A stretch of 31,131 nucleotides of DNA from a virus, in IMG/VR virus record IMGVR_UViG_3300010299_000038, positions 1 through 31,131 of that record. One strand, given 5' to 3'. Position 1 is the first letter of the stretch; each line of letters starts with the position of its first letter. A program made the translations under genes and the position numbers. Positions 3,287 through 25,100 of the stretch are shown here, one piece after another. Below the pieces are notes generated by a model that made no database searches, was not told the DNA's origin, and was given only the letters and a program-made list of their open reading frames with translations.

Positions 3287-3295
3287 TGTGGAAAA
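3287..3295 (-). promoter_or_regulatory. DnaA-box-like site overlapping a start codon
   Basis: TGTGGAAAA is the exact reverse complement of TTTTCCACA. It overlaps the proposed GTG start (3288-3290) of the AbrB-like gene, at the right edge of the repeat region. Confidence 0.35.
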
Positions 3296-4283: not shown

Positions 4284-4295
4284 TACTGTTAGAAT
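4267..4295 (+). promoter_or_regulatory. Strong sigma70-type promoter with extended -10
   Basis: TTGACT (4267-4272, 5/6), 17-nt spacer, TAGAAT (4290-4295, 5/6), with TG at 4287-4288 giving an extended -10 (TG-T-TAGAAT). The -35 lies inside the end of the oxygenase gene. The predicted start, near 4302, is about 15 nt before the ATG at 4317. Best host-type promoter in the window. Confidence 0.75.
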
Positions 4296-4316
4296 GATGA
4301 AGCGTAACTAATCATT

Positions 4317-5839: not shown

Positions 5840-6070
5840 ATGTCTAATCATCCTGTTCCCGACCATAATCGCGATATGATGCGGGAAGATTTTGGTACAG
5901 AATATCTGATCAGCGACCCCAACTCGGATAAAATCTTAAGAGAAGTTGTTGGGGATCATAAGCACGACCTAAAAAGACAGACTTTACTCCATGAAGAGAT
6001 TCGTAACGATGCGGATTACGACGATTGGGAGTATGGTACTGAACCAAGTTACGGAAAAGACTATAAATAA
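5840..6070 (+). CDS. Small acidic protein upstream of gp25 (76 residues)
   Basis: ATG 5840 has a good Shine-Dalgarno (GGAGGG, 5830-5835), so I prefer it to the in-frame TTG at 5828. The product is hydrophilic and charged: MSNHPVPDHNRDMMREDFGT, then SDKILREVVGDHKHDLKRQ, then an acidic Tyr-rich end (YDDWEYGTEPSYGKDYK). Probably little more than two helices. The final codons contain the TATAAATA late promoter of gp25. Its position in the baseplate block suggests a virion or assembly role, but no family is recognised. Confidence 0.75.
   Translation: MSNHPVPDHNRDMMREDFGTEYLISDPNSDKILREVVGDHKHDLKRQTLLHEEIRNDADYDDWEYGTEPSYGKDYK
6062..6069 (+). promoter_or_regulatory. T4-type late promoter TATAAATA before gp25
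   Basis: Perfect match to the T4 late -10 element. It overlaps the stop codon of the preceding gene and lies 26 nt before the gp25 ATG (6095). Known T4 biology: such elements are read by RNA polymerase carrying the phage late sigma (gp55), with the gp33 coactivator and sliding clamp. Confidence 0.75.
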
Positions 6071-6094
6071 TGGCGTTATGTACTGCCAATTTTG

Positions 6095-6490
6095 ATGGCG
6101 AAGAGATCTAAGCGAGATTTTAAGGACATCTCCCTCTCATTTAAGCCTCATCCCGTCACAGGTGATGTAATGGCGATCAAAAATGAGAAGGCGATTCAGC
6201 GTTCTGTGCGAAATCTTGTGCAAACGGGTCTCACTGAGCGATTTTATAGCAATTTGGGCACTGATATTTTTGGAAGTCTGTTCGGATTTGTCGATTATGC
6301 CACTGGAGGCGTAATTGCACAACAAGTTCTTGATGTGTTAAACACTGCTGAACCCAGAATAGACAAAGTAAATGTAAATGTGGACCCCAGACCTGATGAT
6401 AATGAGTTTGAGGTCCGTGTTTCTTACACAATTTCGGGAGAAAGTCCAGTAGCTCAAAATTATTCGTTCATCGTAGAGGCAACAAGGTAA
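6095..6490 (+). CDS. gp25: Baseplate wedge protein gp25
   Basis: 131 residues, matching T4 gp25 (132). ATG 6095 is preferred to the TTG one codon earlier. Family features: basic N-terminus followed by FKDISLSFKPHPVTGDV, then NEKAIQRSVRNLVQTGLTERFYSNLGTDI in two halves (the conserved 'n..ai..svrnll.t...er...p..G..i' segment), LLF-like SLFGFVDY, and a beta-rich end (RIDKVNVNVDPRPDDNEFEV). gp25 is lysozyme-like in fold without being an enzyme and belongs to the inner baseplate, where it nucleates sheath assembly with gp6 and gp53. It is followed by gp6 after 4 nt, as in T4 phages. Confidence 0.9.
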   Translation: MAKRSKRDFKDISLSFKPHPVTGDVMAIKNEKAIQRSVRNLVQTGLTERFYSNLGTDIFGSLFGFVDYATGGVIAQQVLDVLNTAEPRIDKVNVNVDPRPDDNEFEVRVSYTISGESPVAQNYSFIVEATR

Positions 6491-6494
6491 AAAA

Positions 6495-8420
6495 ATGCCC
6501 GTAAGTAACTTTACAAACCTAGATTTTAACCAAATTAGAGAGCAGATTAAGTCTTACTTAAGAGCTAACTCTGATTTTGAGTCTTTTGACTATGAAGGTT
6601 CTAACATGTCGATTCTTATCGACATTTTGGCGTATAATACTTACATTTCGGCATTCAATGCCAACATGGTCGCCAACGAAACCTTCCTGGATTCGGCAGC
6701 ACTAAGAGAAAATGTTGTTTCTCTCGCAAGAAACATTGGTTATGTACCAAGATCGCGTAAATCTGCAAAAGCGATCATTGATTTTGACTTTAAATTCGAT
6801 GGAAACAGTAATAGTGTTACTCTGAAGAAGGGATTACTCGTTGTAGGTAAGCAAGCTAACACTTCTTACACATTTTCTATCCCAGATGACATCACTGTAA
6901 CCAGTCCTATCGATGGTGGATCCTCTACATTAGCAAATCCACCACGAACTGCAAAGTTTAGAAATATTTCCGTCTACCAAGGCACCCTTTTAAAGAAGAC
7001 TTATACTGTTAATGGCAGTTTAGACCAAAGATTTATCCTCGACAACTCATTTGTTGACTCTGAGAGCATTAGAGTCTTTGTCAGGAAGTCTGGATCATCG
7101 TCTGGACTGGAATATTCTCGTGTAGACAATATTGCATCTGTCACAGGTGGGTCAAATATCTACCTCATCCAAGAAGTTAAGGATGAGAGATACGAATTAC
7201 TCTTCGGTGATGGTCTTTTTGGTAAAAAGTTAGATAATGGTGATACCATCGAAGTCAGTTACATTGTAACTGATGGAAAGGATGGAAATGATGGCAAATT
7301 CTTCTCGTTCTCTGGAACGCCCGTCAGTGACGCTGGAACGCCTCTTGCCTCTTCAGTGACTCCTACCATCACAACGATCCAAACTGCCCGTGGAGGGGCA
7401 GATATCGAGCCCGTAGAGTCAATTAAGTACATCGCTCCAAGAATTTACTCATCTCAGTACAGAGCAGTTACTTCTAGAGACTATGAAGGCATTATTGCAA
7501 GCATTTTCCCAGAAGCAGAGTCAGTATCTGTTGTTGGTGGTGAAGAATTAGATCCTCCAGAGTTCGGAACAGTTGTAATTAGCGTAAAACCCAGAAATGG
7601 TACATTTTTGTCCGACTTTTCCAAAGAACAGATTTTAGCGGGTCTTAAAAAGTACTCGATTGCGGGAATTAACCAAAGAATCGTTGACCTGAAGGTCCTC
7701 TACCTAGAATTGGATGTTTATGCGTACTATAACTCTACATTGAGCAGTGATGTTGAGGGATTGAAGTCTCAAATCACAAATGTTTTATCAGAATACGGAA
7801 AATCTACTAATTTGAACGCATTTGGAGGAAGATTCCGCTATTCAGAAGCACAATGTATCGTAGATCGCGCAAATAAGGCTATTATGTCTAATATTATGCG
7901 CGTAACGATGCGGAGAGACTTAAAACCCATCTACAATGCGTTCTCTCAGTATGAATTATGCTTTGGAAACGCTTTCCATGTTAATCCTAAAGGAAAAAAT
8001 ATTAAGAGCACAGGATTCCGCGTCAAAGATAACAATGATCTATTGTATTTCACAGATATTCCAAATGATGACTTAGAAACTGGAAATCTTGCCGTAATTA
8101 GACCATCTTCTGTTGATGGTACAGAACCAACAGTTATTATCTCTAGTGCAGGAACTATCGATTATAAAAAAGGTGAAATTTTAATCAATACAATCTATTT
8201 TACAGAATCTGAATTATCTTCAGGTATTATTGAAATTCAAGCGTATCCAGAATCCAATGATATCATCGGATTGAAGGATTTGTACTTACAATTAGATATG
8301 TCAAATAGCAAGATAAATATCGTAAGAGACACTATTTCCTCTGGCGAACAAATCTCTGGAATTGGATATAATGTCACCTCTAGCTACTCTAATGGTTCTA
8401 TTATTAGACAGAAAGGATGA
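6495..8420 (+). CDS. gp6: Baseplate wedge protein gp6 (baseplate J-like)
   Basis: 641 residues against 660 in T4 gp6. The N-terminus (LDFNQIREQIKSYLRA, then NMSILIDILAYNTYISAF and ANETFLDSAALRENVVSLAR) is the classic gp6/baseplate J opening; VARNIGYVPRSRKSAKA follows in slightly altered form. The central YELLFGDGLFGKKLDNGD (about 230-247) is the signature 'fGdG..G..l..G..i.v.Y' strand pair, and AVTSRDYEGIIASIFPEAES (about 325-345) the 'av...Dye.ia...p' pattern. gp6 forms the ring-like dimers that tie baseplate wedges together. It starts 4 nt after gp25 and its stop overlaps the next ATG (ATGA). Confidence 0.93.
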   Translation: MPVSNFTNLDFNQIREQIKSYLRANSDFESFDYEGSNMSILIDILAYNTYISAFNANMVANETFLDSAALRENVVSLARNIGYVPRSRKSAKAIIDFDFKFDGNSNSVTLKKGLLVVGKQANTSYTFSIPDDITVTSPIDGGSSTLANPPRTAKFRNISVYQGTLLKKTYTVNGSLDQRFILDNSFVDSESIRVFVRKSGSSSGLEYSRVDNIASVTGGSNIYLIQEVKDERYELLFGDGLFGKKLDNGDTIEVSYIVTDGKDGNDGKFFSFSGTPVSDAGTPLASSVTPTITTIQTARGGADIEPVESIKYIAPRIYSSQYRAVTSRDYEGIIASIFPEAESVSVVGGEELDPPEFGTVVISVKPRNGTFLSDFSKEQILAGLKKYSIAGINQRIVDLKVLYLELDVYAYYNSTLSSDVEGLKSQITNVLSEYGKSTNLNAFGGRFRYSEAQCIVDRANKAIMSNIMRVTMRRDLKPIYNAFSQYELCFGNAFHVNPKGKNIKSTGFRVKDNNDLLYFTDIPNDDLETGNLAVIRPSSVDGTEPTVIISSAGTIDYKKGEILINTIYFTESELSSGIIEIQAYPESNDIIGLKDLYLQLDMSNSKINIVRDTISSGEQISGIGYNVTSSYSNGSIIRQKG

Positions 8421-11400
8421 TCGAAACATATAGCCCACTTTCAGCAAGAGTAAAAACATACCAGGTAGTAGGTGATCAACCTCCAGAGTTTGCTGTTACT
8501 GAAAATCCGCTTTTGGCGGATTTTTTGAAGCAATATTACATCTCTCAGGAATACCAAGGTGGTCCTGTAGATATTGCTGAAAATATTGATCAATATATCC
8601 GAATTGATAACTTAACTCAAGAAGTTATTGGCGGAAATGTTTCGCTGGCGTCTAGTATTAGTGCTTCTGACGATACTATCAATATTACTCCCAATACAAA
8701 GGGATATCCTCAAAGATGGGGTCTTTTAAAGATCGGTAATGAGATTATTACATATACCGACAAGACTGAGACATCTTTTACGGGATGCGTAAGAGGATTT
8801 ACTGGAATTACCTCTTATGATAACAAACAACCAACAGTAGAGAGCACTGTTGCAGGATCTCATGAATCTGGAACTTCTGTACAAAATTTAAGCGTACTTT
8901 TCCTTCAGAAGTTCTATGACAAGTTAAAGGGGATGTATGCGCCTGGTTTGGAAGGCGTAGACCTCTCTCCCACTCTGGATGTTAATAATTTCATCAAAGA
9001 AGCTAGAAGTTTATACGAATCAAAGGGTACTGACCAATCCTTCAAAATTCTATTCAAAGCACTTTTTGGATTAGAACCAAAAATCAATGATCTGGAGCAA
9101 TTCCTGATCAAACCCTCATATGCAAATTATTTGCGTAGAGAAGAGTTTTCAGTAGAGTTAATTTCTGGAGATCCATTCAAAGCAGTTGGTAGAACTCTCT
9201 TCCAAGACGCTGATCCCAATAATCCACTAATCCAAGCAGCTAGTGGTCCTATTTCAGAAGTTTCTAGCATTAGAGACAATTTTTATAAAATTTCAGTATT
9301 TGTTGGTTACGACGAAAACGACTTAATTACTGGTCAATTTAGAATTCCTGGAACAACCAAGAATATCGGTCAAATTGGACTAGGAGCTTCTGTTGTCACA
9401 GTAGATTCTACAATCGGATTCCCTCAAGAGGGCGCGATTGAGATTGGGAGAGCAACTGATACATTCTATCAGCAACTGAATTATACTAGCAAAACGGTTA
9501 ATCAATTTATCGGAGTAACTACTACAACGATTGACATTCCATCAGCATCTGATGTCTTTGCTCCAAACACTGTTTATAGTTTTGAAGATAATGCTGGTAA
9601 AAATAAGGTTGTAATGCGTATTACGGGAGTTTTATCTAACTTCCGTACTAATGATGCTTTGTTTGGTCTGAAGAATGATTCCCAGATCAAAGTAAAGCAA
9701 TTGGGGAGATATATTATTAATCCTCAAGTTTCAAAGTCTTACAGACAAATCTTCTTTAATTCCTGGATCTATAATACTAGCACGAGATTCCAAATTGAAA
9801 CTCTTAGTGGATCCACATTTACTCTTGCTGGTTCTATCGATAAATCCAGTCTAAAAGTTGGTGACGAAATTGAATTGTTACTTAGAAATACGAATACGGT
9901 TGTAGCACCCTCGCTGAAAGTTCAGACGGTCAATACGACACAGAATTCTATTACGGTAACTGGAACCTTTACGACATCAGGAACACTTTCTTACGATATT
10001 AGAAGAAAATTAAAAAGGGCACAAAGTACATCCGCGCCTATTACTGGTGGACAACTTCAGATCACATCTGATATCACAAATGCTTACATCGTAGAAGCTG
10101 AAGACTCTGCTAGCGAAAAAGAAGAGGCATTTATTGCGTCTAACTCTTTACCATCGTACCCTATTGCCACTAATAAAATTCGCGCTACTCTTACGAATGC
10201 AAGTGCAAGTGCGTTCCAAGGATATAATAGTTTAACCAATAAATTTACAATTCTGTCCTTCCCCTCCCCAGTTCCATTTGTTACTGGAGATGAAATTGTA
10301 TATCTTCCAACACCAGGAACGCAAGTTATAAATGAACTGACTAGAGCAACTTATTTTGTTGAAGTACAGGCATTAAAAAACCAGATTAAATTATACCCAT
10401 CTAGATCCTTTATCGCAACCTCAGATGCGATTGAGTTTACAAAACCAAGCAATCTAACTGGCACACATGATTTTGTAAGAGCAGATCAGGGTTCTAGAAG
10501 CATCTTCCCATCAAGAACTCTGAAAAGGTTTATTCTTGAGCAAGATTTAAAGAGTGGAAAAGAGCAGCAGACTACCTCAGAAAGAACTCGTGATGGTCAA
10601 ACTGGTATTCTTATCAATGGTGTAGAAATTGTAAACTACAAATCGGATAAGGTCGTTTACTATGGACCATTAACTGATTTGCAGGTTGTCAATAATGGTA
10701 CAGGTTATGATGTATTAAATGCTCCTGTAATTGAAATTGAGGGTGACTTAGTAGGTGCTAGAGCAAAAGCAAATGTGATTATTGAAGGTAATCTTGTCGA
10801 TATTCTGGTAGATCCCGATGACTCCGACATTAAGAAGATTTCTTCAATTATCGTTAGTGGAGGAAATGGTTCTGGCGCTATTGTAGAGGCAGACACAAAT
10901 CTTCAATTTAATGAACTTCTTTTTAATGCCGCCACTACTGCAAGTGGTGGAAATATTTCTCCAGGAATTAGTCAATTTGTTTTAACTACATCGCATGGAT
11001 ATAAAGATGGTGATCGTATCGTTTATGACAACAATGGTAGTTCAAACATCGGCATTGCTACTACTGGATCTGCTAGTGATGATTTAACGCTGGTTAATGG
11101 CGAGTCATATTATATTCGTACACAGACTGATAAGATTTTCTATCTACACAGAAATAAAGCAGATGCTATTAGTGGTATCAATACAGTAGGTATCTCGACA
11201 GCTGCTTCTGGTTCCAACTCAGGCATTCATATCTTTAGGGATTATGAACCAAAGAGAAAATTATCCAGAATTGTTATTGTAGATCCTGGAACTAAGTATT
11301 CTAACAGAATGGTTACCGTTGGACCATCTGGAATTAGTACTATTAGAGATTATGTCGAATTTAAAGATCATGGATTCTCTGATGGAGAGGTTGTTCATTA

Positions 11401-14400
11401 TGGTATTACTTCTACTGGTGCCACGATCAGCGGTTTAAGTACATCTAAGCAATATCAGATTTTAACTCTTAATAAAGATCAGTTTAGGGTCTGTGAATCT
11501 GGGTTTAGTACAGAAAGAACACCAGATACTACAAATTTTGATAATGGTGAATATGTTCGCTTCGATAGTAGTGGAACCGATTACCAGACATTCTTCTATC
11601 CTCCCGTAACTGTCGATGTCAATGTAATTACTGACTCTGATGTTCAGAAACAATTTACCGCCACTCCAATTGTTCGTGGAGAAATTGTTGACACGATGAT
11701 GTATGATCCAGGACAAAGTTATGGATCTACAATTATTAATTTTGAAAATAATCCGAAAGTTTCCCTTAAAAAAGGCGATTTTGCACAAATTGGTCTTGTA
11801 ATTTCTAACGGAAGAATTATTGATGCCTTTGTTCAGTCTAAAGGTAGTAATTATGCTGGACCACCAGAATTGGAGGTAACTACTTCAAAGACAAATGCTT
11901 CTGGAGCTAAATTGAGAGCAATTGTTGAAAATGGTCAAGTTGTCGATGTAGTAATTGTTTCTAAAGGAATTGGATATACACAAGAAACTACTGGTGTTAT
12001 TGTAAGAGTCCCTGGCGAAGCTGCAACTTTTGAAACAAAGATTAGACCTTTAGTTGCAAACAAATATGTTACGAGTAACACAACAAACGGAGATTTCTTA
12101 GGACCCGTAGAGGACGGTCTTGCTATTCAATCTGTGGCATATGGCGCAACAGTCAGAAATGCTTTCGGTGATGATGGATCTAGCCATTCTCCCATCATCG
12201 GATGGGCATATGATGGAAATCCGATATATGGTCCTTATGGATTTGACAATCCAGACGACATTCAGTCGTCCTCTAGGAGACTTAGAACCTCTTATGTACT
12301 AGATACATCACGAGTTCAAAATAGACCATCTACAAGCGATTTCCCAGCAGGATTCTTTGTTGACGATTATCACTTTGATGGTAGTGGAGATCTGGATATT
12401 CATAATGGTAGATTCTGCAAAACTCCTGATTTTGAAGAGGGAGTCTATGCTTACTTTGCCACTGTCAATAATATTTTGACACCAGAGTTTCCTTATTACA
12501 TTGGGGATACCTATAGAAGTTTTGCTTTGAGCGACAACATTCTTGCTGGAGCAAGAATTCGTCAAAACAGATTTGACTTTGAGAACTCTAACCTGATTAG
12601 AAATACCTTCCCATACAATATGTTTGGGGATGGAAAGACTTATGATTTTGTTTACGAACCATATAAGAGACTGCCCCAAATTGCATACCCAGACACAATT
12701 GGTAGTGGTGCAATTGAAAATATCAGAGTGTCTTCTCCTGGAACTGGTTATTCCATGAATTCCAAGGTTTATTTTAATGAAGATGGAACAGGTGGATTTG
12801 GTGCTATTGCAAAAGTAAATCTTTTAGAGGGACAGGAATTAAACTTTATTGAGACCGAATATCAAAGATATGATAATGTAGTGTTTGAATGGCGTAATGG
12901 CAAAGTTCTTGGGCATACTGATGGTACTCATGACATAAGAACTGATGACTTTATTCAGATTTCTGGATTATCTACAACAGTAACTGGTCTCGGTGGATCT
13001 AAGAAAGTAAGTTCTCCATTTTATCAGACTCAGTTAGTCAGTGGAGAATTTGTTGGATTTGTCACTGACATTCAAGTTCAATTCGTTCCTGATAATATCA
13101 GTGCAGGATCTTCTATTGGTGTTGGAACTGAGTCTGCAAGAATTTTGAATGTTTATAGAAATGATGCTACTCTAAGGATTAGAAGAAGTATCGGTGTTTC
13201 TACAAATACATCTGGAGTAGGCGTAACATATTTCTCTGATGATTTCATTGTTCCAGTAAATACACCATATTTTGATTCCGAAGTAAGTGAAAAGTTATAC
13301 TTTAATCCTACAGAGTCTGTTGGATTTGGCACGACAGTTGGTGGAACAATTCAGAGAGACTATGAGTATCTTGCAAATACTAAAACGAGATCTCTGTTAG
13401 TTGGAACAATTTATCTGCAAGATCATAATATTCATACAAATGATGTTCTGTCCTTTAGTTTACCTGCAGGTGGAGCTAACATTTCGTGTGCCACATCCTC
13501 TACTTCAGCATCTTACTTCAACTTACCAGCATCTGTATATGCTGTCAGAAAAACCAAGGATACTATTGGTCTGAAGACTACAACAGACTCTGATGAAATT
13601 CTATTCATCTCTGGCGGAACTGATCAGTATGACTATCTCTTTGAAACTCAACCTGCAAATCAGGTAACTGGTAGAGTTGAAAAAATTGTCAGTACACTAC
13701 AAACTGCAGAGGATCACAATTTAGAGACTGGAGACAAAATCACTCTTGAGGTAAGACCTGGAGTTGTTACTGGAATTGGAAGCACAAGTTTTGTTACTGT
13801 TAAGAAGATTGACGATTATCTGGTAATTGATCCCATTGATGTGTCTACTTCGGGAATCAATACAACTAATAATACGATCACGGTTTCCAACCATGGTCTT
13901 GTGACGGGAGACAAGGTTCTTTACTATGGTGGCAGCAACATTGCAGGTGGATTGACGCAAAGAGAATACTATGTTTATAGGGTAGATGATAATGTAATTT
14001 CCCTTACTGAAACTTTATCGCAGACAGTTGGTGTTCCTAGAGTTGTAGGAATTACCAGTATTGGTGGATCTGGTCAGTCTCTGAACAGAATTAACCCAGA
14101 ACTGCGTGTCGTAAAAAATAATGATCTTAAGTTTGACTTATCTGATCCTTCTCTGGTAGGTCATAAACTTCAGTTCTTCTATGATCAAAACTTCTTTAAT
14201 GATTTTGTAGGAAGTGGAAAATCTGAAACTTTTGAAGTTATTGGTCTTACAACAACTGCTACTGTCGGTGTTGCATCCACTGTTCCAGAAGATCATCCGA
14301 TTGTAACATTAACATTCTCTGGCGAGAATGATAGTTTATACTACAACTTGTTTAGTGCAGGTGGTATTACTACAGCAGATACTGGAGTTAGAAATTACAA

Positions 14401-17400
14401 CACCATTAGATATGTTGATAGCAAATACAATGGCACATATAATGTTATTGGCATTGGAAGCACCACATTTGCTGTTAATCTGACAGAAAAACCACAGTCA
14501 CTTAGATATGATTCTGATGATTGGGATGTATGCAAATACACGACAAATTCTCCAACTGCGACTGGGGGAATTGCAAATGTTCTTTTACAAGATGGCGGAT
14601 ATCAGTATAATGTTCTTCCTGGAATTTCTAGTGTTCAGGGAGAGGGAATCAATGCTATTTTGGTCCCAGAATCTAATAATGTAAACAGGTTAGAGAGAGT
14701 TACTGCGCCAAATGATGTTTTTGGATATCCTTCCGATAATACACTTAAACCAGACGCTTTCATTCCAAGAATTCTTGAGGTTGAAAACTTTGGAACTATT
14801 GTTAATGCTAGAGTATCAAATGGAGGCAAATTCTACATTAACGCTCCTGCACTTGTCCTCTATGATAAGAGCACTGGAGAAATTGTAGATAGCGGATTGT
14901 TTACCTGCGAATTAAGTGATTCTGCAGTAAATACAGTTTCTATTCCTGTTCCTCCTGTAGGACTAACACAAAATGATTATGGTCTTGCACCAATTAGAAA
15001 TAGCAATGGAATTAGCATTCTTAGTGTTGAGTCTGACGCTGGATTCTTAACCTGCCGTATTGTTACCCCAATTCTCGGATATACTGATGAACCAATTAGT
15101 GTTGGTGATAAAGTATTTGTAGAAGGAATTGAGTTCAATAATGATGGTAGTGGTTTTAACTCGGGAGACTATAAATTTGAACCATTCACTGTCTCAGACT
15201 ATAATGATGCGACAAACCCAAGACAGGTTACATTCAATCTCAATGGTATCACTACAAATACTGGAACGGGTGCAACTGTCTCCCTTGGGTATGGTCAGAT
15301 TGTCGCTGCTGGATCTCTTGCCGAGTTTGAAGTAACTAAAGGAAATTCGATATTCATCGATAATGAACCATTTAAGAAAAATAATAATCCAAATGCTGAC
15401 ATATTCTTAGATTTCTCTGATACAAATACTGCAAAGATTATCGTAAGTGGCGCAGAACCAATTAATGTTGGTGATGAGTTAACTGGTAAACTGAGTGGTT
15501 CTAAAGCAAAGGTTGTCGGTATTACCGAATTTGATGGTAGATTTGATATTTCTGCATCCGTAAGAACTCTTGTTGGATGGAGAGACAACATTGGATTTAT
15601 CAATGATACTAATCAGGTTATTCCCGATAACGATTATTATCAAAATCTGTCATACGCTATCGAGAGCACTAAGACTTTTGAAGAGTTAATTACCTATGTA
15701 AACGACATCGTTCACCCATCTGGTCTGAAGAACTTTGCAAATACTCAGATTATTTCTGAAGGAAAACCTGGTGATACACTTATCCCAGCAGAAGATGCTG
15801 GTGGTTTGGTTCTGGACTTCCTCTCAGATCCGCTTAGAGTAGATGCTATCTACAACTTTGACCTTGGTAGAGATTTTGCTGCTGTTGGTAATGTTTCTAA
15901 GTTCATCGAACTCAGAAACACAAGACTTTCTGACTATGTTCTGAATAAGAACAACAGGGTATTGAATATTGATGACATCTCTCCCGAATTTGTAAGTAAC
16001 GAATCTAATGATTTGAGTGATTATAGAATTGTTGCGACATATCCTTCAGGAAGATTTTTCCAGAGATTCTTAACTCAATCTGTGTATAGAGATGAGAATC
16101 CACTTAAAGATCATTACCAACTTAATGAGTTTATCTCGGTAACCTTGGGAGAGGATACTTACTTCTTACAGAAGTTTGAGATCTACAATAATAACCAGAT
16201 TGGGTTGTCTACTGGATATGTCGTCTTCGATACCGAATATAATCAGGCTACTTCTAAAACAGAACTGTTTGCAAGACCAAATGAACCATTTGATACTGAC
16301 TATGAGATTAAGTCACTTCAATTTAATTTCTCAGACAGTCTTGGCATTGGATCGACATCTATCGGACATACTGAGTTAATTAGTACCGTTACTAGAGTCG
16401 CCGCGGCCAGTTCTCTTGGCGTAACAACTAGTGTATCTGTTCTGGACATGGATGTTGCCACTACTGATGCAGCATTTGTTCAAATGATCGGTATTGGATC
16501 TGATCAAATTGACTTCTATGAATATGCAGTAATGCATAATGGAACTGATACTTACCTCACCGAATTAGCAGCATTTAATACTAGACAAAACCTATCTGGT
16601 TTGTCTAACCCAAGGTTTATCGGAACCGTTACATCTGGTATTTCTAGTGGTGTATTGAGTCTTAACTTTGAAAATGGTTCTCAGGCAGATGTTGACATTA
16701 AGTGTAAGGTTACTGCATACCAAAATAATGATGTAGGTGTTGCGACAGATCTTTACAGATATAAGATTCCATTTACTCCTGACGGAACAGAAAGAAGTGG
16801 TAGATTACAAGTTACTCATTCTTCGACAGTTGGTATTCAGACTATGGTCGGAATTACTAGCTTCACTGATCTCTCTGCTAAGTCTACTGTTTGGATTAGT
16901 GCTGGATCCACGCAATCTATTCATCAGGTTTACTTATTGACTGATCCTGCAAAACAGGAAAACTTTGTCGGTGAGTTTGCATTGGCAGCGATTGGTAGCA
17001 CTAATGGTATTGGTACATTTGGTGCAGATTATAAAGCAGATGGATCTATTACTATTGAATTCTATCCAGATGCCGAATATAGCACTGGTATTGTTAGCCT
17101 TACATCTTATAATGAACTTCTTTATAAGATCCTTGATCCCAATGGATCTATTGAAGGTATTGGCGATCTAACATACGGTTCTGTTATTGAGAATGTCTCG
17201 CAGAACCTGTATCTTGGTATTAATAACAGAGATAAGAAATCTTTTGAACTTAAGTATAAGGGAACTCCAATCTATGCTCGTGAGACTAATATCGCTAACC
17301 CATCTGAACTTGACAGAGAATTAGGTCAATTTAACTTTAAGCACTTCTTCTCTCCTGGAGAGCAGTTGTCTTATAACCCAGATTCTAACCTTGTTGGTAT

Positions 17401-20400
17401 TGCTGGTTCTGCTCTTGTATATTATACGGGTGTTGGTACAGCATATCTTCCAGAGACTGTCTATGCTATTAAGAATAATAACAATCAATTCCAAATTGCT
17501 CTTAATGAGTCTGATGCTCTTCAAGGTATTGCGGTAACATTTGTTGATGGCTCTGGTCAGGGTAACAAGCATAGATTCACGATGAGAAAGCGTGATTCTA
17601 AGTCTATTATCGCTATTAGTGGTCTTGTACAAAAACCAATATCTTACACATCCATTAACTACACTCTGGATGTTCCTGTTGCTGGTTTTGCTACTGCCTT
17701 TGTTCTCAGTGGTATTTCATCTATTCAGTCTGGAGACCTTCTAAAAATTGAAGATGAGTACTCGATTGTTAGAACTGTTGGTTTTGGTACAACATCCCTT
17801 GGACCTATTGTTGGCATTGGCACATGGACTCTGGTAGAGGTTGAGAGAGGTGCTGTTGGTACTGCTAAGACAGATCATGCTTCTGGAGAGACTGCTAGAT
17901 TATTCAGAGGATCTTTCCAAATTCTCGATAGCAACATTCACTTTACTCAAGCACCTTTAGGTGGTGACATTGGTCTAATCAATGACGAGAATTTACCATT
18001 TGCTAGAGCTACTTTCTCTGGAAGAACATTCCTTAGAAATGACTACACAACTAACCAGTTGTTCGACGACTTCTCGGAAAGTTTTGATGGACTGGAAACC
18101 ACATATCCATTAACATCTATCGGCGTTGCAGTAACTGGTATTGGTTCCACTGGTGGTAATGGTGTTCTGTTTATTAACAATATCTTCCAAGCACCATTTA
18201 GCGAAAACAATACTAATTCTAACTTCAAGATCACTGAAGCAGCTGGAATTAGTAGTGTACAATTCACTGGTATTAGTTCCTTTGGATTTACTGATCCGAT
18301 TATTGACACAGGAGATATTAACGAAAACCAGTTGCCTAGAGGCGGTATCATTGTTTCTCTGGCATCCACTCCAGGTAGAGGTTATGCTCCATTTGTGGGT
18401 GCAAAAGTTAGAGCAGAGGTTGATGCCTTTGGCGCTATTCAGAATGTTATCGGTATTCCTACAACAGGAACTGCTCTTGGCATTGTAACTGCAACTTATA
18501 ATAACATTACTGGTATCTTATCTGTTAGAACAAGTCCTGCACATGGTCTTACTATTAGTGACCAGATAAAACTGGTTGGTCTTGAATTCACCTGTCCTGG
18601 AGGATCAGGTATTACTACTACTATCTTCCCAGATTATGACCAGTCTACTGATATAACAAGAATTGTTTCTTCAACAGAGTTCTGGACAAATGTAGGACCT
18701 AGCACGATTGTCCATGAATATGTCGGACAAGGTAGTGCATTCCCATGGTATGACCTGACATTTGGATCTGGTTATAAGACCACTCTAGGAACGATTTCTA
18801 TCGGTGTCACAGACACTGTTGGTAGTGGTGCTACTGTTACTGCTACAGTAGGTGCTGGAGGGTCTCTAGTCTTCTCTGTAGACCATGCTGGTAGTCTTTA
18901 TACCTCTGATACTATTCTTACCGCTCCAGACGCAAATGGAAAGGATCTTTCTATTGTGGGTAATTATAGAGAGGGTATTGGCAGCACAACAATAAGTGGT
19001 GTGGGATGCTCCATCACCGTGAATTTATTAGGGATTAGTACAAACTATGTTGGACTTTCTTCTGGACCAGAATTTCAACTATTTGAAGTACAAGACTTTA
19101 CACTCACTAAACCTGGTTATGGATTTAAAATTGGTGATAAGTTCAATTTAGTAGGACTTTCTACTGATCCTAACGCAGGAAGTTTGTTTATTCCCTTTGA
19201 AGTTGAAGTCATCGATATCTTTAATGATGAAATTGCTGCATGGCAGTTTGGTAATATTGACTATATCGATAATATTAAACCACTTCAAGATGGATTTAGA
19301 ACTAGATATCCTCTGTACTATCAAGGTCAACTAGTAAGTTTTGAAATTGATAACAATGATGCTGATTCTAGAGAGATTGATCTTGGTCCAGTTCTCCTGG
19401 TATTCGTCAATGGTGTTATTCAAGATCCAGATGTACACTATGTCTTTAAGGGCGGTACATCTATTCAATTCACCACAGCACCCACTACTGGAGACGATGT
19501 ATTCATCTTCTTCTATAGAGGAACAATTGGAGATGATAGCTTCTTGTTTGATATCAATGAGGTTATTAAAGAAGGCGATACTTTAGAACTCTTTAAGAGT
19601 CCTGAAGTAGAAGCAAATATACTCAGCAAAGACACCTCAAATTATGATCAAAGTGAAAAGAGAATTGTACAGACAATCACAACCGCATCTGTTGTAGAAA
19701 CTCCATTCTATCAAGGTGCAGGTGTCAATAATGACGATTACAAACCTCTGCGTTGGGAAAAACAAAAGGCAGATAAGGTATTTGGTGGTCTGCTAGTATC
19801 TAAAGCAAGAGATTCTCTGGAACCACAAATCAATCCTGTTGCTAACATTATTGGTGTTGTAACTACAGGGGACGGATCTATTAATGTTGATAGCACCGCT
19901 TTGTTCAGAGACATCGATGGTTTACTTACTGACGACTTCAACTTATTCGCAATTGCCCCTGTTGGATTTGGAACTACCGCTGCTAGAGGTGTAAACTTTG
20001 AATTGCTGAATGATGTTCCTCCATTGAACACTGCAATTCAAGGATACATTGGTCTTGTTACTGGTATCACAACATCTGCTGGCATTGGCACAGATCTTGG
20101 ACTTGTTCTTCAGTTAGATACTAACGAACTTGTCAATGACTTTAATGCTTCGTATGTACAAAACTTGGCAGACGGTCAACCCATTAAACTGTATGCTTCT
20201 GGCATCAATACCGCTGGTGTTATCACCAGTATTGACACTCATGACAGTGATGTAGTCGCCATTAGTACATACAATGTTGACAATATTTACTATGCACACT
20301 CCGTCTCTTGGGACGGAAGTTCTAGAACTGGTGTTATTACATGTAACATTCATTCTGGACAAGATGTTTCTGGTCTAGTTGGTGTTGGATCAACATTACA

Positions 20401-20575
20401 TCCCGCCGCTCTTATTACCTGGGGCAAATTCTCTTCATTTGCTAGAGATCCTGTAAACCCAGTCTCTCTCAATGTTAAGGGTATTAATTTTGATCCCGAA
20501 TTGAATAACTATCCTTTAGTTCAGAGAAGAAATGTTGGTCTCAGAAACACTGGAGCACTTGATAAAACATTATAA
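8417..20575 (+). CDS. Giant baseplate structural protein at the gp7 position
   Basis: 4052 residues, four times T4 gp7 (1032), which occupies the same place between gp6 and gp8; I assign it by position, not by demonstrable similarity. ATG 8417 overlaps the gp6 stop. The N-terminal 250 residues (PLLADFLKQYYISQEYQGG; ESKGTDQSFKILFKALFGL; FLIKPSYANYLRREE) are the usual opening of such cyanomyovirus proteins. The rest is beta-rich and repetitive: G-x-G-Y modules (about residues 752, 1138, 1179, 1437, 2056, 2132, 3314, 3564), H-G-x-x-x-G-D modules (about 857, 978, 1669, 1765, 1822, 3372), GFP.G.I.IG/NEII.Y modules (about 80-156, 325-370, 3083-3171) and a YHYH-like domain at about 1255-1350. No transmembrane segment or enzyme motif seen. 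Probably a large wedge or peripheral baseplate component. Confidence 0.85.
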   Translation: MIETYSPLSARVKTYQVVGDQPPEFAVTENPLLADFLKQYYISQEYQGGPVDIAENIDQYIRIDNLTQEVIGGNVSLASSISASDDTINITPNTKGYPQRWGLLKIGNEIITYTDKTETSFTGCVRGFTGITSYDNKQPTVESTVAGSHESGTSVQNLSVLFLQKFYDKLKGMYAPGLEGVDLSPTLDVNNFIKEARSLYESKGTDQSFKILFKALFGLEPKINDLEQFLIKPSYANYLRREEFSVELISGDPFKAVGRTLFQDADPNNPLIQAASGPISEVSSIRDNFYKISVFVGYDENDLITGQFRIPGTTKNIGQIGLGASVVTVDSTIGFPQEGAIEIGRATDTFYQQLNYTSKTVNQFIGVTTTTIDIPSASDVFAPNTVYSFEDNAGKNKVVMRITGVLSNFRTNDALFGLKNDSQIKVKQLGRYIINPQVSKSYRQIFFNSWIYNTSTRFQIETLSGSTFTLAGSIDKSSLKVGDEIELLLRNTNTVVAPSLKVQTVNTTQNSITVTGTFTTSGTLSYDIRRKLKRAQSTSAPITGGQLQITSDITNAYIVEAEDSASEKEEAFIASNSLPSYPIATNKIRATLTNASASAFQGYNSLTNKFTILSFPSPVPFVTGDEIVYLPTPGTQVINELTRATYFVEVQALKNQIKLYPSRSFIATSDAIEFTKPSNLTGTHDFVRADQGSRSIFPSRTLKRFILEQDLKSGKEQQTTSERTRDGQTGILINGVEIVNYKSDKVVYYGPLTDLQVVNNGTGYDVLNAPVIEIEGDLVGARAKANVIIEGNLVDILVDPDDSDIKKISSIIVSGGNGSGAIVEADTNLQFNELLFNAATTASGGNISPGISQFVLTTSHGYKDGDRIVYDNNGSSNIGIATTGSASDDLTLVNGESYYIRTQTDKIFYLHRNKADAISGINTVGISTAASGSNSGIHIFRDYEPKRKLSRIVIVDPGTKYSNRMVTVGPSGISTIRDYVEFKDHGFSDGEVVHYGITSTGATISGLSTSKQYQILTLNKDQFRVCESGFSTERTPDTTNFDNGEYVRFDSSGTDYQTFFYPPVTVDVNVITDSDVQKQFTATPIVRGEIVDTMMYDPGQSYGSTIINFENNPKVSLKKGDFAQIGLVISNGRIIDAFVQSKGSNYAGPPELEVTTSKTNASGAKLRAIVENGQVVDVVIVSKGIGYTQETTGVIVRVPGEAATFETKIRPLVANKYVTSNTTNGDFLGPVEDGLAIQSVAYGATVRNAFGDDGSSHSPIIGWAYDGNPIYGPYGFDNPDDIQSSSRRLRTSYVLDTSRVQNRPSTSDFPAGFFVDDYHFDGSGDLDIHNGRFCKTPDFEEGVYAYFATVNNILTPEFPYYIGDTYRSFALSDNILAGARIRQNRFDFENSNLIRNTFPYNMFGDGKTYDFVYEPYKRLPQIAYPDTIGSGAIENIRVSSPGTGYSMNSKVYFNEDGTGGFGAIAKVNLLEGQELNFIETEYQRYDNVVFEWRNGKVLGHTDGTHDIRTDDFIQISGLSTTVTGLGGSKKVSSPFYQTQLVSGEFVGFVTDIQVQFVPDNISAGSSIGVGTESARILNVYRNDATLRIRRSIGVSTNTSGVGVTYFSDDFIVPVNTPYFDSEVSEKLYFNPTESVGFGTTVGGTIQRDYEYLANTKTRSLLVGTIYLQDHNIHTNDVLSFSLPAGGANISCATSSTSASYFNLPASVYAVRKTKDTIGLKTTTDSDEILFISGGTDQYDYLFETQPANQVTGRVEKIVSTLQTAEDHNLETGDKITLEVRPGVVTGIGSTSFVTVKKIDDYLVIDPIDVSTSGINTTNNTITVSNHGLVTGDKVLYYGGSNIAGGLTQREYYVYRVDDNVISLTETLSQTVGVPRVVGITSIGGSGQSLNRINPELRVVKNNDLKFDLSDPSLVGHKLQFFYDQNFFNDFVGSGKSETFEVIGLTTTATVGVASTVPEDHPIVTLTFSGENDSLYYNLFSAGGITTADTGVRNYNTIRYVDSKYNGTYNVIGIGSTTFAVNLTEKPQSLRYDSDDWDVCKYTTNSPTATGGIANVLLQDGGYQYNVLPGISSVQGEGINAILVPESNNVNRLERVTAPNDVFGYPSDNTLKPDAFIPRILEVENFGTIVNARVSNGGKFYINAPALVLYDKSTGEIVDSGLFTCELSDSAVNTVSIPVPPVGLTQNDYGLAPIRNSNGISILSVESDAGFLTCRIVTPILGYTDEPISVGDKVFVEGIEFNNDGSGFNSGDYKFEPFTVSDYNDATNPRQVTFNLNGITTNTGTGATVSLGYGQIVAAGSLAEFEVTKGNSIFIDNEPFKKNNNPNADIFLDFSDTNTAKIIVSGAEPINVGDELTGKLSGSKAKVVGITEFDGRFDISASVRTLVGWRDNIGFINDTNQVIPDNDYYQNLSYAIESTKTFEELITYVNDIVHPSGLKNFANTQIISEGKPGDTLIPAEDAGGLVLDFLSDPLRVDAIYNFDLGRDFAAVGNVSKFIELRNTRLSDYVLNKNNRVLNIDDISPEFVSNESNDLSDYRIVATYPSGRFFQRFLTQSVYRDENPLKDHYQLNEFISVTLGEDTYFLQKFEIYNNNQIGLSTGYVVFDTEYNQATSKTELFARPNEPFDTDYEIKSLQFNFSDSLGIGSTSIGHTELISTVTRVAAASSLGVTTSVSVLDMDVATTDAAFVQMIGIGSDQIDFYEYAVMHNGTDTYLTELAAFNTRQNLSGLSNPRFIGTVTSGISSGVLSLNFENGSQADVDIKCKVTAYQNNDVGVATDLYRYKIPFTPDGTERSGRLQVTHSSTVGIQTMVGITSFTDLSAKSTVWISAGSTQSIHQVYLLTDPAKQENFVGEFALAAIGSTNGIGTFGADYKADGSITIEFYPDAEYSTGIVSLTSYNELLYKILDPNGSIEGIGDLTYGSVIENVSQNLYLGINNRDKKSFELKYKGTPIYARETNIANPSELDRELGQFNFKHFFSPGEQLSYNPDSNLVGIAGSALVYYTGVGTAYLPETVYAIKNNNNQFQIALNESDALQGIAVTFVDGSGQGNKHRFTMRKRDSKSIIAISGLVQKPISYTSINYTLDVPVAGFATAFVLSGISSIQSGDLLKIEDEYSIVRTVGFGTTSLGPIVGIGTWTLVEVERGAVGTAKTDHASGETARLFRGSFQILDSNIHFTQAPLGGDIGLINDENLPFARATFSGRTFLRNDYTTNQLFDDFSESFDGLETTYPLTSIGVAVTGIGSTGGNGVLFINNIFQAPFSENNTNSNFKITEAAGISSVQFTGISSFGFTDPIIDTGDINENQLPRGGIIVSLASTPGRGYAPFVGAKVRAEVDAFGAIQNVIGIPTTGTALGIVTATYNNITGILSVRTSPAHGLTISDQIKLVGLEFTCPGGSGITTTIFPDYDQSTDITRIVSSTEFWTNVGPSTIVHEYVGQGSAFPWYDLTFGSGYKTTLGTISIGVTDTVGSGATVTATVGAGGSLVFSVDHAGSLYTSDTILTAPDANGKDLSIVGNYREGIGSTTISGVGCSITVNLLGISTNYVGLSSGPEFQLFEVQDFTLTKPGYGFKIGDKFNLVGLSTDPNAGSLFIPFEVEVIDIFNDEIAAWQFGNIDYIDNIKPLQDGFRTRYPLYYQGQLVSFEIDNNDADSREIDLGPVLLVFVNGVIQDPDVHYVFKGGTSIQFTTAPTTGDDVFIFFYRGTIGDDSFLFDINEVIKEGDTLELFKSPEVEANILSKDTSNYDQSEKRIVQTITTASVVETPFYQGAGVNNDDYKPLRWEKQKADKVFGGLLVSKARDSLEPQINPVANIIGVVTTGDGSINVDSTALFRDIDGLLTDDFNLFAIAPVGFGTTAARGVNFELLNDVPPLNTAIQGYIGLVTGITTSAGIGTDLGLVLQLDTNELVNDFNASYVQNLADGQPIKLYASGINTAGVITSIDTHDSDVVAISTYNVDNIYYAHSVSWDGSSRTGVITCNIHSGQDVSGLVGVGSTLHPAALITWGKFSSFARDPVNPVSLNVKGINFDPELNNYPLVQRRNVGLRNTGALDKTL
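12180..12470 (+). other. YHYH-like domain inside the giant protein
   Basis: Codons for about residues 1255-1350. SPIIGWAYDGNPIYGPYGF (W1263 to F1276 core) matches the YHYH domain signature 'G.a.DG.PIYGp.Gf', and the downstream DYHFDGSGDLDIHNGRFC with GVYAYFATV matches its 'lDe.nGr....p..p.G.YaYf.T' second half. The domain is of unknown function, found in bacterial secreted proteins and annotated in some cyanophage structural proteins. Confidence 0.7.
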
Positions 20576-20578
20576 ATA
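20571..20578 (+). promoter_or_regulatory. T4-type late promoter TATAAATA before gp8
   Basis: Perfect TATAAATA overlapping the stop codon (20573-20575) of the giant gene, 31 nt before the gp8 ATG at 20609. It gives gp8 and the genes after it a fresh start of late transcription after a 12-kb gene. Confidence 0.75.
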
Positions 20579-20608: not shown

Positions 20609-22180
20609 ATGCCTGCTATTATAACAGATCAATTTAGAATTATTAACGCGAATAATTTTGTAGAGGATGTAACCGCTGGTACAAACTCGTACTACACTTT
20701 TTTGAGTCTAGCGAATCCTACTGCCGCTGGGTTTGGGCGGACAGACACTTGGAACAGTACGACTGTTCAACCACCATCGCCAGAAGATAGCATTAATTAT
20801 ACAAACCACTTGTATGATACGATGCTATTTGGCAGAAAAGTCTTTCCTGGCGATGTTAGGAGACTGATCAGAAAAAATGCATGGACTAAGGGTACATCAT
20901 ATGATATGTACCGACATGACTATAGTGTATTAAACAGATCTTTAGTATCAAACTCAAGTAGATTATATTCGGCAAACTACTATGTAATTAACTCTGATTT
21001 CAGAGTTTATGTTTGTATTGATAATGGATCTGCGGGAATTTCTTCTTCAGCAAATGCATCTCTGGATGAACCAACATTCACTGACTTAGAACCAGCAGCG
21101 GCAGGCGTTTCTGGTGATGGATATCTGTGGAAATATTTGTTTACGGTTCCTCCTGCTGATATTGTAAAGTTTGACTCCACTGAATATATCGCGGTTCCTA
21201 ACAACTGGGCAACTAGTGTTTCTAATGACATTAAAGTTGTCAGAGATAATGGAGACTCTGAAGTTAATGATAACCAGATTAAAGTGGTATCTATTGATGA
21301 GGCAGGTGAGGGATACAGTTTCCTATCGAGTCCAATTGAGGTAGATATTGTTGGTGATGGAACTGGAGCTAAAGTTAGAATTCTAACAAATACAAATGGT
21401 CAGATTATTTCTGCCCAGGTAACCAATGGTGGTAAGGGATATAGTTTTGCTAGAGTTGATCTTTCCTCCATCAATGCCTCTGCATCTAAGTTTGCAAAAC
21501 TAACTCCTATTATTCCACCATCTAGAGGTCATGGTTATGATCTGTATAAAGAACTAGGAACTGATAAGGTTCTGATCTATACAAGATTTGACTCATCTTC
21601 TTATGACTTTGCTGATGATACCGTATTCTCGCAGGTTGGGGTGATTAAGAACCCAAGTCCTGTTGGAGCTTCTTCTACAATTTTCTTACAGACATCTGAA
21701 TTTTCTGCCCTTAAGGGTATTAAGTTCACTGGAAACACATCACAGACTCTTGAGATTGGAACAAAGATTGAGCAAAATATTTCTGGTGTTGGTACGGCTA
21801 GAGGTTATGTTGCTTCTTATGACATCAACACTAGAGTAATTAAATACTATCAAGACAGAAGTTTGTTCTTTAATCAATCTGTCTATGATCAAACTGATAG
21901 CACTAATGTCGCTCTTCAGTCACCAGTTCTTGCTTTCCAGTCAACTGGTGATGCGATTACTGGTCCTGGATTCAGTGTCAATGTTGACCAGACATTTAGT
22001 GGCATCTCGACCACGACTCCTGCTGGAAAGGTTGTAGACCTTGGTGTACAATTCACAAATGGTCTTGCAGATATGGAGATAAATAAGAGGAGCGGTGAAA
22101 TTATCTACATTGACAACAGACCCTCAATTACGAGGAATGAGAGACAAAAGGAAGACATCAAAATCGTATTAGAGTTCTAA
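20609..22180 (+). CDS. gp8: Baseplate wedge protein gp8
   Basis: 523 residues, against 334 in T4 gp8. The N-terminal domain has the gp8 pattern: TDQFRIINANNFVEDV, SYYTFLSLANPT, PPSPEDSINY with YDTMLFGRKV, DVRRLIRKNAWTKGTSYDMY with RHDYS, then YYVINSDFRVYVCIDNG and LDEPTFTDLEP with DGYLWKYLFTVPPADIVKF. gp8 is a dimer in each baseplate wedge, joined to gp7 and gp10. The extra length comes partly from an inserted beta module at about residues 230-283 (EAGEGYSFLSSPIEV ... GAKVRI ... NGGKGYSFARV) that resembles the G-x-G-Y repeats of the giant protein. It has its own late promoter and ends 4 nt before the next gene. Confidence 0.92.
   Translation: MPAIITDQFRIINANNFVEDVTAGTNSYYTFLSLANPTAAGFGRTDTWNSTTVQPPSPEDSINYTNHLYDTMLFGRKVFPGDVRRLIRKNAWTKGTSYDMYRHDYSVLNRSLVSNSSRLYSANYYVINSDFRVYVCIDNGSAGISSSANASLDEPTFTDLEPAAAGVSGDGYLWKYLFTVPPADIVKFDSTEYIAVPNNWATSVSNDIKVVRDNGDSEVNDNQIKVVSIDEAGEGYSFLSSPIEVDIVGDGTGAKVRILTNTNGQIISAQVTNGGKGYSFARVDLSSINASASKFAKLTPIIPPSRGHGYDLYKELGTDKVLIYTRFDSSSYDFADDTVFSQVGVIKNPSPVGASSTIFLQTSEFSALKGIKFTGNTSQTLEIGTKIEQNISGVGTARGYVASYDINTRVIKYYQDRSLFFNQSVYDQTDSTNVALQSPVLAFQSTGDAITGPGFSVNVDQTFSGISTTTPAGKVVDLGVQFTNGLADMEINKRSGEIIYIDNRPSITRNERQKEDIKIVLEF
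22078..22085 (+). promoter_or_regulatory. Late-promoter-like element GATAAATA
   Basis: One mismatch to TATAAATA, inside the end of gp8 and 100 nt before the ATG at 22185. May help transcription of the next large structural gene. Confidence 0.3.
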
Positions 22181-22184
22181 GAAG

Positions 22185-25100
22185 ATGCCACAACAGACTA
22201 ACCTGAACATCAGTCCTTATTATGACGATTATGATAGGGACAGTAATTACTACAGAGTCTTATTTAAACCTGGTTTCCCAGTTCAGGCTAGAGAACTGAC
22301 TACTTTGCAGTCTATGCTGCAAAACCAGGTAGAGCAATTTGGTAGTCATATTTTTAAAGAAGGGTCTGTAGTTATTCCTGGCGGAGTTACTTATGATGGA
22401 GATTACTTTGCCGTTAGATTAGACTCTACTCATCTCGGCATTGACATCGAACTCTATCTTAAGCAGTTAGTTGGTAAAAGAATTAAAGGTCAAAATTCTG
22501 GAATAACTGCTAAAGTAATTAACTACATCACTGGATCAAAATCGATTAGTTCTGATCCTACGATTTATGTAAAATATTTGGTTCCTGGACCAAGTAACGA
22601 GTTTTCATTCTTCCAAGATAATGAACTTCTTGTTCTTCAGGACTCCATTACATATGGAAACACAACAATTAACTCTGGTTCTACTTTCGCATCCACTTTA
22701 GTTAGTGATGCGTGTTTTGCTGGTTCTGCGATTTCTATCTCCTCTGGTGTATATTTTGTTCGTGGAACATTTGCAAATGTAAACAAACAGACCCTGATTC
22801 TCGATCAGTATAATAACAAACCATTTTACAGAGTTGGTTTGAAGGTTGTAGAGACTCTTGTAAATGCAAAGGACGATCCTAGTCTCTATGATAATGCTAA
22901 GGGTTTCTCTAATTTCGCTGCTCCTGGTGCAGATAGATTAAAGATTGACCTCGTTCTGACAAAGAAAGAACTGGGGGATTATGATGATACTGACTTTGTA
23001 GAACTTGTAAGAATTAGAGCTGGTGTTATTGAGAAAGAGATCAAGTCTTCTCAGTACAATTTAATTAGAGACTATCTTGCAAAGAGAACTTATGATGAAT
23101 CTGGTAACTATACTGTAAAACCATTCAGATTGAATGTTTCGGAAAGTCTGAATGATAGAGCAGGAAATAACGGAATCTTCTTCGATACTGCCAATACATA
23201 TCAGGGTAATGTTCCTTCGGACGATCTTGCATGTATTAAAGTATCTTCTGGTAGTGCATATATTAAAGGTTATGAGTATGACCTTCCTGGTGCTATCTTA
23301 GATGTCGAAAAACCAAGAACAACCTCCGACTTAATTACTGAGAATCTCCCATATACAATGGGAAATAGAATTAGAGTTAATGCGGTTTCTGGTATCAGCA
23401 CATTTAGAAACTCTATTGACCTATTAGCAGGTAATCAGGTTGGTGTTGCTAGTGAAAAAATTGGCGATGCGAAGGTATATAACTTTGGTCTGGTAGATGC
23501 AAGGTATCAAAATAATAGCACAGAATGGGATTTGTTCCTCTATGATGTGCAAACTTATACTAAGTTAGATATTAATGAGTATGTCTCTTCGTCAGAGGTT
23601 ATTGAGTCTACCTATGTTGTCGGGAAAGACAGCGGTGCGAGTGGGTATACTATTGCTGCTGGTGCGGGTAGCAGCACCCTTACTCTTACTCAGACATCTG
23701 GCAGGTTCTTACCAGGAGAACAACTCATCTTCGACGGTAGAGAAGCAAATCTCTCAAGAACAGTAGAAAGAATTACTGCTTTTGGTTTTGATGACATTGA
23801 CGCTTTCCAGCAAAGCAATACATTCTATGCTAAGAAAGCACTGACTGATAGAATTCCTTTTGGATTTACTGCATCTGACAATATCACTATTACAACTGCT
23901 GGTGCCGTATCATGTGCTGGCAGAACCTTTGAAAGATTCAAACCTGGTGATGTCATTCGCTATAATGATCCCACAAAGAATCTTATCACCCAGAATGTAG
24001 TTCAATCAGTCGCCGCAGACGGTGTGACAATGACTGTTGTCGGCATGAACACCATCACTAACCTCTTTGAGGGTGGTCGTCCTGTTGGATCTGCATATAC
24101 TGGAACTTTCAGAGTTGGTAGTCAAATTACCGACGATTCCAATCCTGGTCTTTACCTGGATCTTCCCACAAAACATGTATCTAATGTTGACTTCACTGAC
24201 TCAACATTACTTTTAACAGAACAGATCACTAACGAAACTACAGACAGTGATGGAGTCCTTGTAGTAAATACAAGTTCCCTCAGTCTGACTGATGTATCTT
24301 TCGTAGCATTTGATCAGGAAAGATATCAAGTTCAATACTCTGACGGAACCATTGCTCCCATCGATGGTTCGCAGGTTACTACGACTGCTAATACCGTTAC
24401 TATTAACAACCTCACTGCAAGTCAGTCTGGAATCAAAGTTAATGTAACAGTACAGAAGACAAATGTAAAGAACAAAGTAAAAGAATTTAAGAGATCTGAG
24501 ATCGTAAAGATCCTATATTCTAGTGACACTGGATCTGGTCTTACCGAGAATGACACCAAAAATGATGGTCTTCTTCACACTCCTTACTATGGTCTTAGAG
24601 TTCAAGATCAACAGGTCTGCCTAAACTATCCAGATGTTGTAAACATTGTAGCGGTTTATGAGTCTTTAGATAATAATGATCCAATTTTCGATAAATTGGT
24701 ATTTACATCTACAGATAGTATTTTTACCGACGCTATTATCGGTGAAGAGATTGTTGGAGAAAATTCCAACGCTGTAGCAAGAATTGTATCGATCGATCCA
24801 ATTGGATTTACTATTAGCGTTGTCTACAAGACATCCACTAAGTTCCAAATTCTCGAAACATTGAGATTTAAGGAGTCCAATGCTACTGCTACACTACAAA
24901 ATGTAAGTCCTGGTAAGTATAAGAATCTTACTAATTCATTCATTCTTGGTCAGGGTCAGAAAGAGCAGTATGCTGATTACTCTAGACTAAAGAGAATTAA
25001 TCGTGGGTATGTGCCATCTAAGAGACTTCTCGTTGTATTAGATCGTTATGCGGTTCCTTCTACTGATACTGGTGATGTATTCACCGTAAACAGTTACAAT

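Follow-up and report, generated by a model that had tools for sequence, protein, structure and literature searches.

The T4 baseplate protein gp7 has a mass of 119 kDa, and it is bound by the N-terminal domain of gp9, while the long tail fibre attaches to the gp9 C-terminal domain (PMC3004832). Docking is also known from gp7-type proteins of other systems: XM1 gp17 docks via residues 80-106 and 201-242 (PMC10457771), A-1(L) gp32 docks via its C-terminal loop (PMC10966104), and in eCIS various tail fibres bind to the gp7-like parts, which are called a hotspot (PMC8894135). The literature on cyanophage gp7 is inconsistent. Gp7 was found only in the non-cyanophage core by Sullivan 2010 (PMC3037559) and was described as absent in pelagimyophages and cyanomyophages, with VrlC in its place, by Zaragoza-Solas 2020 (PMC7029224), whereas several database records, including that of P-SSM2, already name a family member gp7. 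An orthologue of S-CREM2, taken as such from its position between gp6 and gp8 and a 4-nt overlap with gp6, was detected in virions by 91 unique peptides, with 27% coverage (PMC10665884). The data presented here, obtained from a 31,131-nt stretch of viral DNA (the window), side with the presence of gp7.

Locus and gene order

The window shows a T4-like gene order, in which gp25, gp6, a giant ORF and gp8 are followed by a VrlC/DUF4815 protein:

6092..6490, + strand: gp25 (Pfam GPW_gp25, PF04965, 1.8e-9)
6495..8420, + strand: gp6 (phrog_219 E=1.7e-188; Pfam Gp6-like_1st 1.1e-13)
8417..20575, + strand: giant gp7 gene, 4052 aa, 439 kDa (ORF; phrog_2885 E=0)
20609..22180, + strand: gp8 (Pfam Phage-Gp8 3.9e-16)
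22185..29468, + strand: VrlC-type protein (DUF4815), 2427 aa, proposed in the literature to stand in for gp7 (PF16075 3e-58)

The giant ORF is assigned to the gp7 slot because gp25 and gp6 lie upstream and gp8 downstream. It is a single intact frame with an ATG start that shares four nucleotides (ATGA) with the gp6 stop, and its phrog_2885 match is to a baseplate wedge subunit. It occupies 12159 of the 31131 nucleotides (39.1%) and is 3.9 times as long as T4 gp7 (4052/1032), so the first-pass annotation, which placed a 4052-residue protein of four times the T4 size in the gp7 slot on about 39 percent of the window, holds on each of these points. Length (4052 open codons have a probability of ~1e-121 by chance at the window base composition), codon-position GC (0.47/0.41/0.26, typical of coding sequence) and conservation mark the giant ORF as a real gene. 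Six copies of the protein would amount to a computed 2.64 MDa.

The named relatives closest to the window are cyanophages of the family Kyanoviridae, and the neighbour gene at 539-1114 matches PF23790, a Pfam family named for Kyanoviridae (1.9e-50). A 221-aa ORF at 3618-4283 matches DUF6445 (2.8e-10). The T4 late promoter consensus, TATAAATA, occurs at only two sites in the window, 6062-6069 and 20571-20578, both on the + strand, 22-30 nt upstream of gp25 and gp8, the second overlapping the giant gene's stop codon; the count is at chance level (2 vs 2.07 expected) and the placement is suggestive.

Cyanophage relatives of the giant gp7 range from 1942 to 6376 aa, so that giant size is typical of the family; the gene belongs to a known family and is not unusual in its group. 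The PHROG names "head and packaging virion structural protein" and "head closure Hc2" were set aside as naming noise because the same profiles cover proteins of the gp7 slot. The HTVC008M gp7 orthologue (L088 33435-36485) is recorded as "head closure Hc2", as is PHROG 3465, which looks like a misannotation, and other downstream genes of HTVC008M are called "baseplate wedge initiator".

Homology to T4 gp7

The profile of alignment A1, which draws on cyanophages and pelagiphages alone, with T4 left out, was searched against 177,635 PDB sequences. T4 gp7 (5hx2) was the first match (5.5e-5) and another gp7 (9f4a) the second (3e-4), and the third came only at 0.5. A larger iterated profile without T4 reached gp7 of the T4 group at 2e-8 (661 ORFs), and its best reversed decoy scored 0.003. 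In the reverse search, a T4-only profile of the C-terminal third of gp7 matched relatives of the giant ORF to 5e-8, aligning over gp7 731-811 and then weakly over 863-912 in the same chains; its sole match outside the slot was at 0.49, and no reversed decoy scored better than 0.23. Core matches to T4 gp7 are also seen for the PHROG of the giant family and for sister profiles (1.7e-5 to 3.6e-4). For the T4 gp7 core 731-811 the homology is accordingly reciprocal, and the ORF has the position between gp6 and gp8 in the 25-6-7-8 order. The second core stretch (T4 863-903) scored E 0.015 vs 0.087 for the decoy, with collinear secondary matches in relatives that are individually weak.

Because of the two-way sequence homology, the two collinear core stretches and the synteny, the identification of the giant ORF as the gp7 of this phage, a homologue of T4 gp7, is supported. 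For the first core half this homology is well supported at the sequence level, and for the second it is proposed from collinearity and weak scores. No counterpart of the N-terminal ~700 residues of T4 gp7 was found in the giant ORF; the full T4 gp7 profile aligns motif A alone, so the giant ORF is a gp7 homologue and not the T4 long form. Searches of the PDB by phmmer with the whole protein or residues 1-325, and with the core B profile, gave no relevant match. Model residues 236-408 resemble KP1 gp7 763-846 at the noise limit of VIA-align (Z 8.2), and the match lies where expected, directly after motif A in both proteins.

Split core and internal insertion

The conserved gp7 core contains ~380 residues in two parts, separated by a long insertion and followed by a long extension:

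8453..9310, + strand: gp7 core, first half (core A), residues 13-298 (blastp to L118 E=3e-8; hhalign 98% vs the HTVC008M family)
9005..9085, + strand: motif A, residues 197-223, equivalent to T4 gp7 ~732-759 (profile searches)
9314..15484, + strand: internal insertion, residues 300-2356, beta-rich, of near-constant length in the clade
15485..15757, + strand: core second half (core B), residues 2357-2447, ~T4 gp7 863-903 (profile searches)
15758..20572, + strand: C-terminal extension, residues 2448-4052

The first half is collinear with the N-terminus of the ~1000-aa pelagiphage orthologues, and core B ends with a "vHPsG.k.F" motif. The comparison with T4 gp7 proposed in the first-pass annotation was well aimed for residues 1-300 and misplaced for the last 300, since the second core stretch is found mid-chain and not at the C-terminus. 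The distance between the core halves is 2059-2231 aa in the clade of the window, ~1,550 in S-H34 and S-PM2, and 2,654 in Syn33; the pelagiphage slot proteins (HTVC008M and relatives, 997-1032 aa) have both halves ~450 residues apart, and T4 shows ~52 residues between the aligned parts. Conservation among 26 complete relatives peaks at residues 1-300, 1301-1400 (YHYH domain), 2401-2500 (core B), 3101-3400 and 3601-3700. Sixty complete ORFs carry both core halves; among these, L091 is 5'-truncated because its frame is split. Since no solved structure of the giant gp7 family was found and core B alone models poorly (AlphaFold2 pLDDT ~30-40), we infer that the halves should meet in the fold. Residues 66-162 of the model mark a small beta insert, with matches at Z 10.2 to residues 479-559 of a JBD30 baseplate chain and at Z 10.8 to a VP1 phage chain.

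The slot protein of Syn33 (L004 18192-37322) reaches 6376 aa and includes ~500 additional residues within the first core half. The gene after it, where the others have gp8, encodes a protein whose N-terminus is gp9-like (4e-5 to T4 gp9 by blastp). No relatives of the S-H34 N-terminus were found in viral_contigs.

Beta repeats and YHYH domain

The first-pass annotation described several short beta-rich repeats with a YHYH-like domain inside, and both were recovered:

10649..10810, + strand: GGY beta repeat, residues 745-798
11756..11980, + strand: GGY beta repeat, residues 1114-1188
12176..12472, + strand: YHYH domain, residues 1254-1352 (PF14240 E=9.2e-25)
12695..12835, + strand: GGY beta repeat, residues 1427-1473
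14540..14728, + strand: GGY beta repeat, residues 2042-2104
14780..14947, + strand: GGY beta repeat, residues 2122-2177
18683..18904, + strand: GGY beta repeat, residues 3423-3496

AlphaFold2 models of the giant protein are almost all strand outside the core. No DNA-level tandem repeats were found inside the giant gene, so the protein repeats have diverged at the DNA level. An "HGL" repeat class was not counted, as its seed caught just a single domain. Residues 219-302 of gp8 (20609-22180) show GGY beta repeats like those of the giant protein, which suggests repeat units common to neighbouring wedge genes. The YHYH domain scores 88.2 bits against PF14240, for which the gathering cut-off is 25.

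C-terminal extension

The C-terminal extension shows a gp9-like domain and a site of variable length:

16364..16738, + strand: gp9-like domain, residues 2650-2774 (VIA-align of AlphaFold2 model)
18482..18727, + strand: single copy of a tail-fibre-type module, residues 3356-3437 (module HMM)
18599..18601, + strand: insertion hotspot, residue 3395 (95 to >1000 extra residues in relatives)

The model of residues 2331-3385 was obtained with AlphaFold2 from a 60-sequence alignment and is confident over ~2514-3190 of the window protein. The domain at 2650-2774 resembles the C-terminal domain of T4 gp9 (1qex_A 169-288; Z 13.7, rmsd 2.1, 114 residues), KP1 phage 9f4a_LA (Z 11.5), a 303-aa protein judged to be a gp9 by length and match, and an Acinetobacter phage tailspike (6e1r; Z 10.3), and these three score above the other rows of that comparison. 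A sequence comparison with T4 gp9 gave E=0.022 and 2% probability (hhalign), in the same register as the fold match. A gp9-like fold need not mean fibre docking, because the same fold is present in tailspikes (6e1r). VIA-align rows with Z below ~8 (antibodies, EF-Tu, Uba1, adhesins) were discarded as noise, as were the top Foldseek E-value matches for two long models, which had very low TM-scores and fell on unrelated beta proteins; VIA-align was relied on in their place.

The extra residues at 3395 in relatives are 1-15 copies of a module of ~90 residues. Among 35 complete proteins of more than 4000 aa, length equals 4023 + 89 x copies (r=0.965), copy counts including partial HMM hits, and the standard deviation is 101 for the rest of the protein vs 371 for total length. 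The window has one copy, L149, which is 82-89% identical to the window, shows five hits, and L173 shows fifteen. The module matches PHROGs named tail fiber protein (6.5e-103 and 2.8e-15). Copies inside one protein have a mean identity of only 32-38%, so the arrays are in general not freshly duplicated. In a paper library with few subscription journals, no description of these arrays, of the split core or of the gp9-like domain was found, and the core split, the gp9-like domain and the module hotspot appear to be undescribed.

Proposed role of the giant gp7

The explanation that we consider probable as a whole is that of a giant gp7 with a split core, whose beta arms dock fibres or partly act as fibres. 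The giant ORF is gp7, its phage being marine, T4-like and most similar to the cyanophages. The protein would be present as one chain per wedge, presumably bound to a pair of gp6 chains as T4 gp7 is. The insertion of near-fixed size and the C-terminal extension would emerge from the core as arms of beta domains lying at the baseplate rim. Of these, the C-terminal arm may dock fibres via the gp9-like domain and reach outward by the module array, the number of modules setting its reach. Fibre docking was among the roles that the first-pass annotation suggested for the extra residues, and docking or acting as fibres appears the best supported of these, because of the gp9-like domain, the tail-fibre modules and the solved fibre-docking gp7 homologues; it stands as a likely role, with host sensing and shielding as less likely ones.

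No annotated gp9, gp10, gp11 or gp12 is found between gp8 and gp13 in P-SSM2 and S-PM2, which fits a movement of rim functions onto gp7, although unannotated equivalents are possible. A tentative extension, which we hold to be less likely than the docking role, is that gp7 absorbed the work of the rim proteins, so that a built-in gp9-type socket and a variable module array would give each virion six covalent arms serving as fibres or for host contact, with their length tuned by module gain and loss at one site. The build-up of insertion, extension and modules suggests that gp7 itself became a fibre or host-contact platform. By these data gp7 is present in cyanophages but masked by its split core and massive growth, and its finding closes an apparent gap in the T4-like core. 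Gp7 is a likely place where abundant ocean phages built the baseplate rim, and the module array at residue 3395 offers a concrete variable region for differences in host range or adsorption.

Alternative explanations

An unlikely reading that nevertheless keeps some weight accepts the protein as gp7 and takes the extra mass as a passive scaffold or skirt, which replaces the T4 gp10/gp11 rim and shields the baseplate with neither fibre docking nor host contact. With no annotated gp9-gp12 in P-SSM2 and S-PM2, something must fill the rim, and the insertion, near-constant in length and with 0.33-0.61 identity across relatives, behaves as a scaffold would. However, relatives have C-terminal arms of 356 to 2965 aa, a range that comes largely from module copy number at one site and is needless for a scaffold, and a gp9-like domain is present.

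It is highly unlikely that the YHYH domain is an enzyme opening the host envelope or slime, although Iyer and co-workers 2021 predict a metal-dependent hydrolase for YHYH domains (PMC7824862) and no other part of the insertion is as conserved as this domain (0.61). Its signature reads Y1344-A-Y-F, in which the name-giving histidines are absent; the signature tyrosines (Y-x-Y) are invariant in 27 aligned proteins, and five reference phages show YAYF or YCYF. Of the histidines of the domain, H1329 is variable (20/27) and only H1257 is near-invariant. The domain may at most be called an aberrant member of its family, and since the signature histidines are gone its function is probably structural or in binding, not catalytic.

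The published statement that VrlC stands in for an absent T4 gp7 (PMC7029224), which would make the giant ORF another structural protein, is already disfavoured and seems very improbable here. The best match of the T4 gp7 profile in the window is the giant ORF (weak, 0.046; relatives to 5e-8), while VrlC (22185-29468) is not matched and contains no gp7 motif detectable with this profile. Two Bacillus phages of the Herelleviridae have a VrlC-type protein that is tail-fibre-like, alongside separate wedge proteins, one of which has a T4 gp6/gp7-like structure (PMC11406892). The VrlC-type protein of the window matches PDB 9euf_0 ("ORF65", a DUF4815 chain of 1152 aa; 1.3e-34), which gives a solved relative for part of it.

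Equally improbable is a chain cut after assembly into a much smaller mature gp7: two contigs have the giant gene in two frames near the N-terminus (L171 965-13412, 304 + 3890 aa; L194 567-13619, 581 + 3769 aa) and in S-PM2 the gp7 gene is followed by a small additional one, but the splits may be sequencing or assembly errors, the 60 complete ORFs keep both core halves, and the S-CREM2 orthologue shows the peptide coverage given above, the positions along the chain not being given (PMC10665884).

Comparison with known systems

T4 gp7 (1032 aa; PDB 5hx2, 5iv5) shares with the giant gp7 the slot, the 4-nt overlap with gp6 (gp6 3082-5064, gp7 5061-8159 in L087), motif A (732-759) and the stretch 731-811, and its stretch 863-903 aligns weakly, in the same order. 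They differ in that T4 gp7 has ~700 residues before motif A and ~52 between the aligned parts, whereas the giant gp7 has ~190 before motif A, ~2,100 between the parts and ~1,600 after the core. The HTVC008M slot protein (1016 aa) occupies the same slot and shows both core halves, with a spacer of 447 aa and a C-tail of ~204 aa. The gp7 of P-SSM2, S-SM2 and P-HM2 and the S-SRM01 orthologue ("baseplate wedge initiator"), all PHROG 2885, belong to the same slot and the same family; by the module HMM, P-SSM2 gp7 (5195 aa) has 11 modules, S-SRM01 (3895 aa) has none and the window has one, and the records give the name only, with no architecture. T4 gp9, the socket of the long tail fibre, has a C-terminal domain of similar fold (model-based, Z 13.7), but it is a separate protein that works as a trimer, whereas in the window the domain lies inside gp7, is without significant sequence similarity to gp9 and is expected as a single chain per wedge. 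XM1 gp17 (242 aa) and A-1(L) gp32 are minimal gp7-type wedge proteins, minute beside the giant gp7 and likened to it by description. They hold spikes or fibres by the core loop (XM1 gp17) and by the C-terminus (XM1 gp17 and A-1(L) gp32), and these two growth points of small gp7-type proteins, the core loop and the C-terminus, would be those enlarged into arms in the giant gp7.
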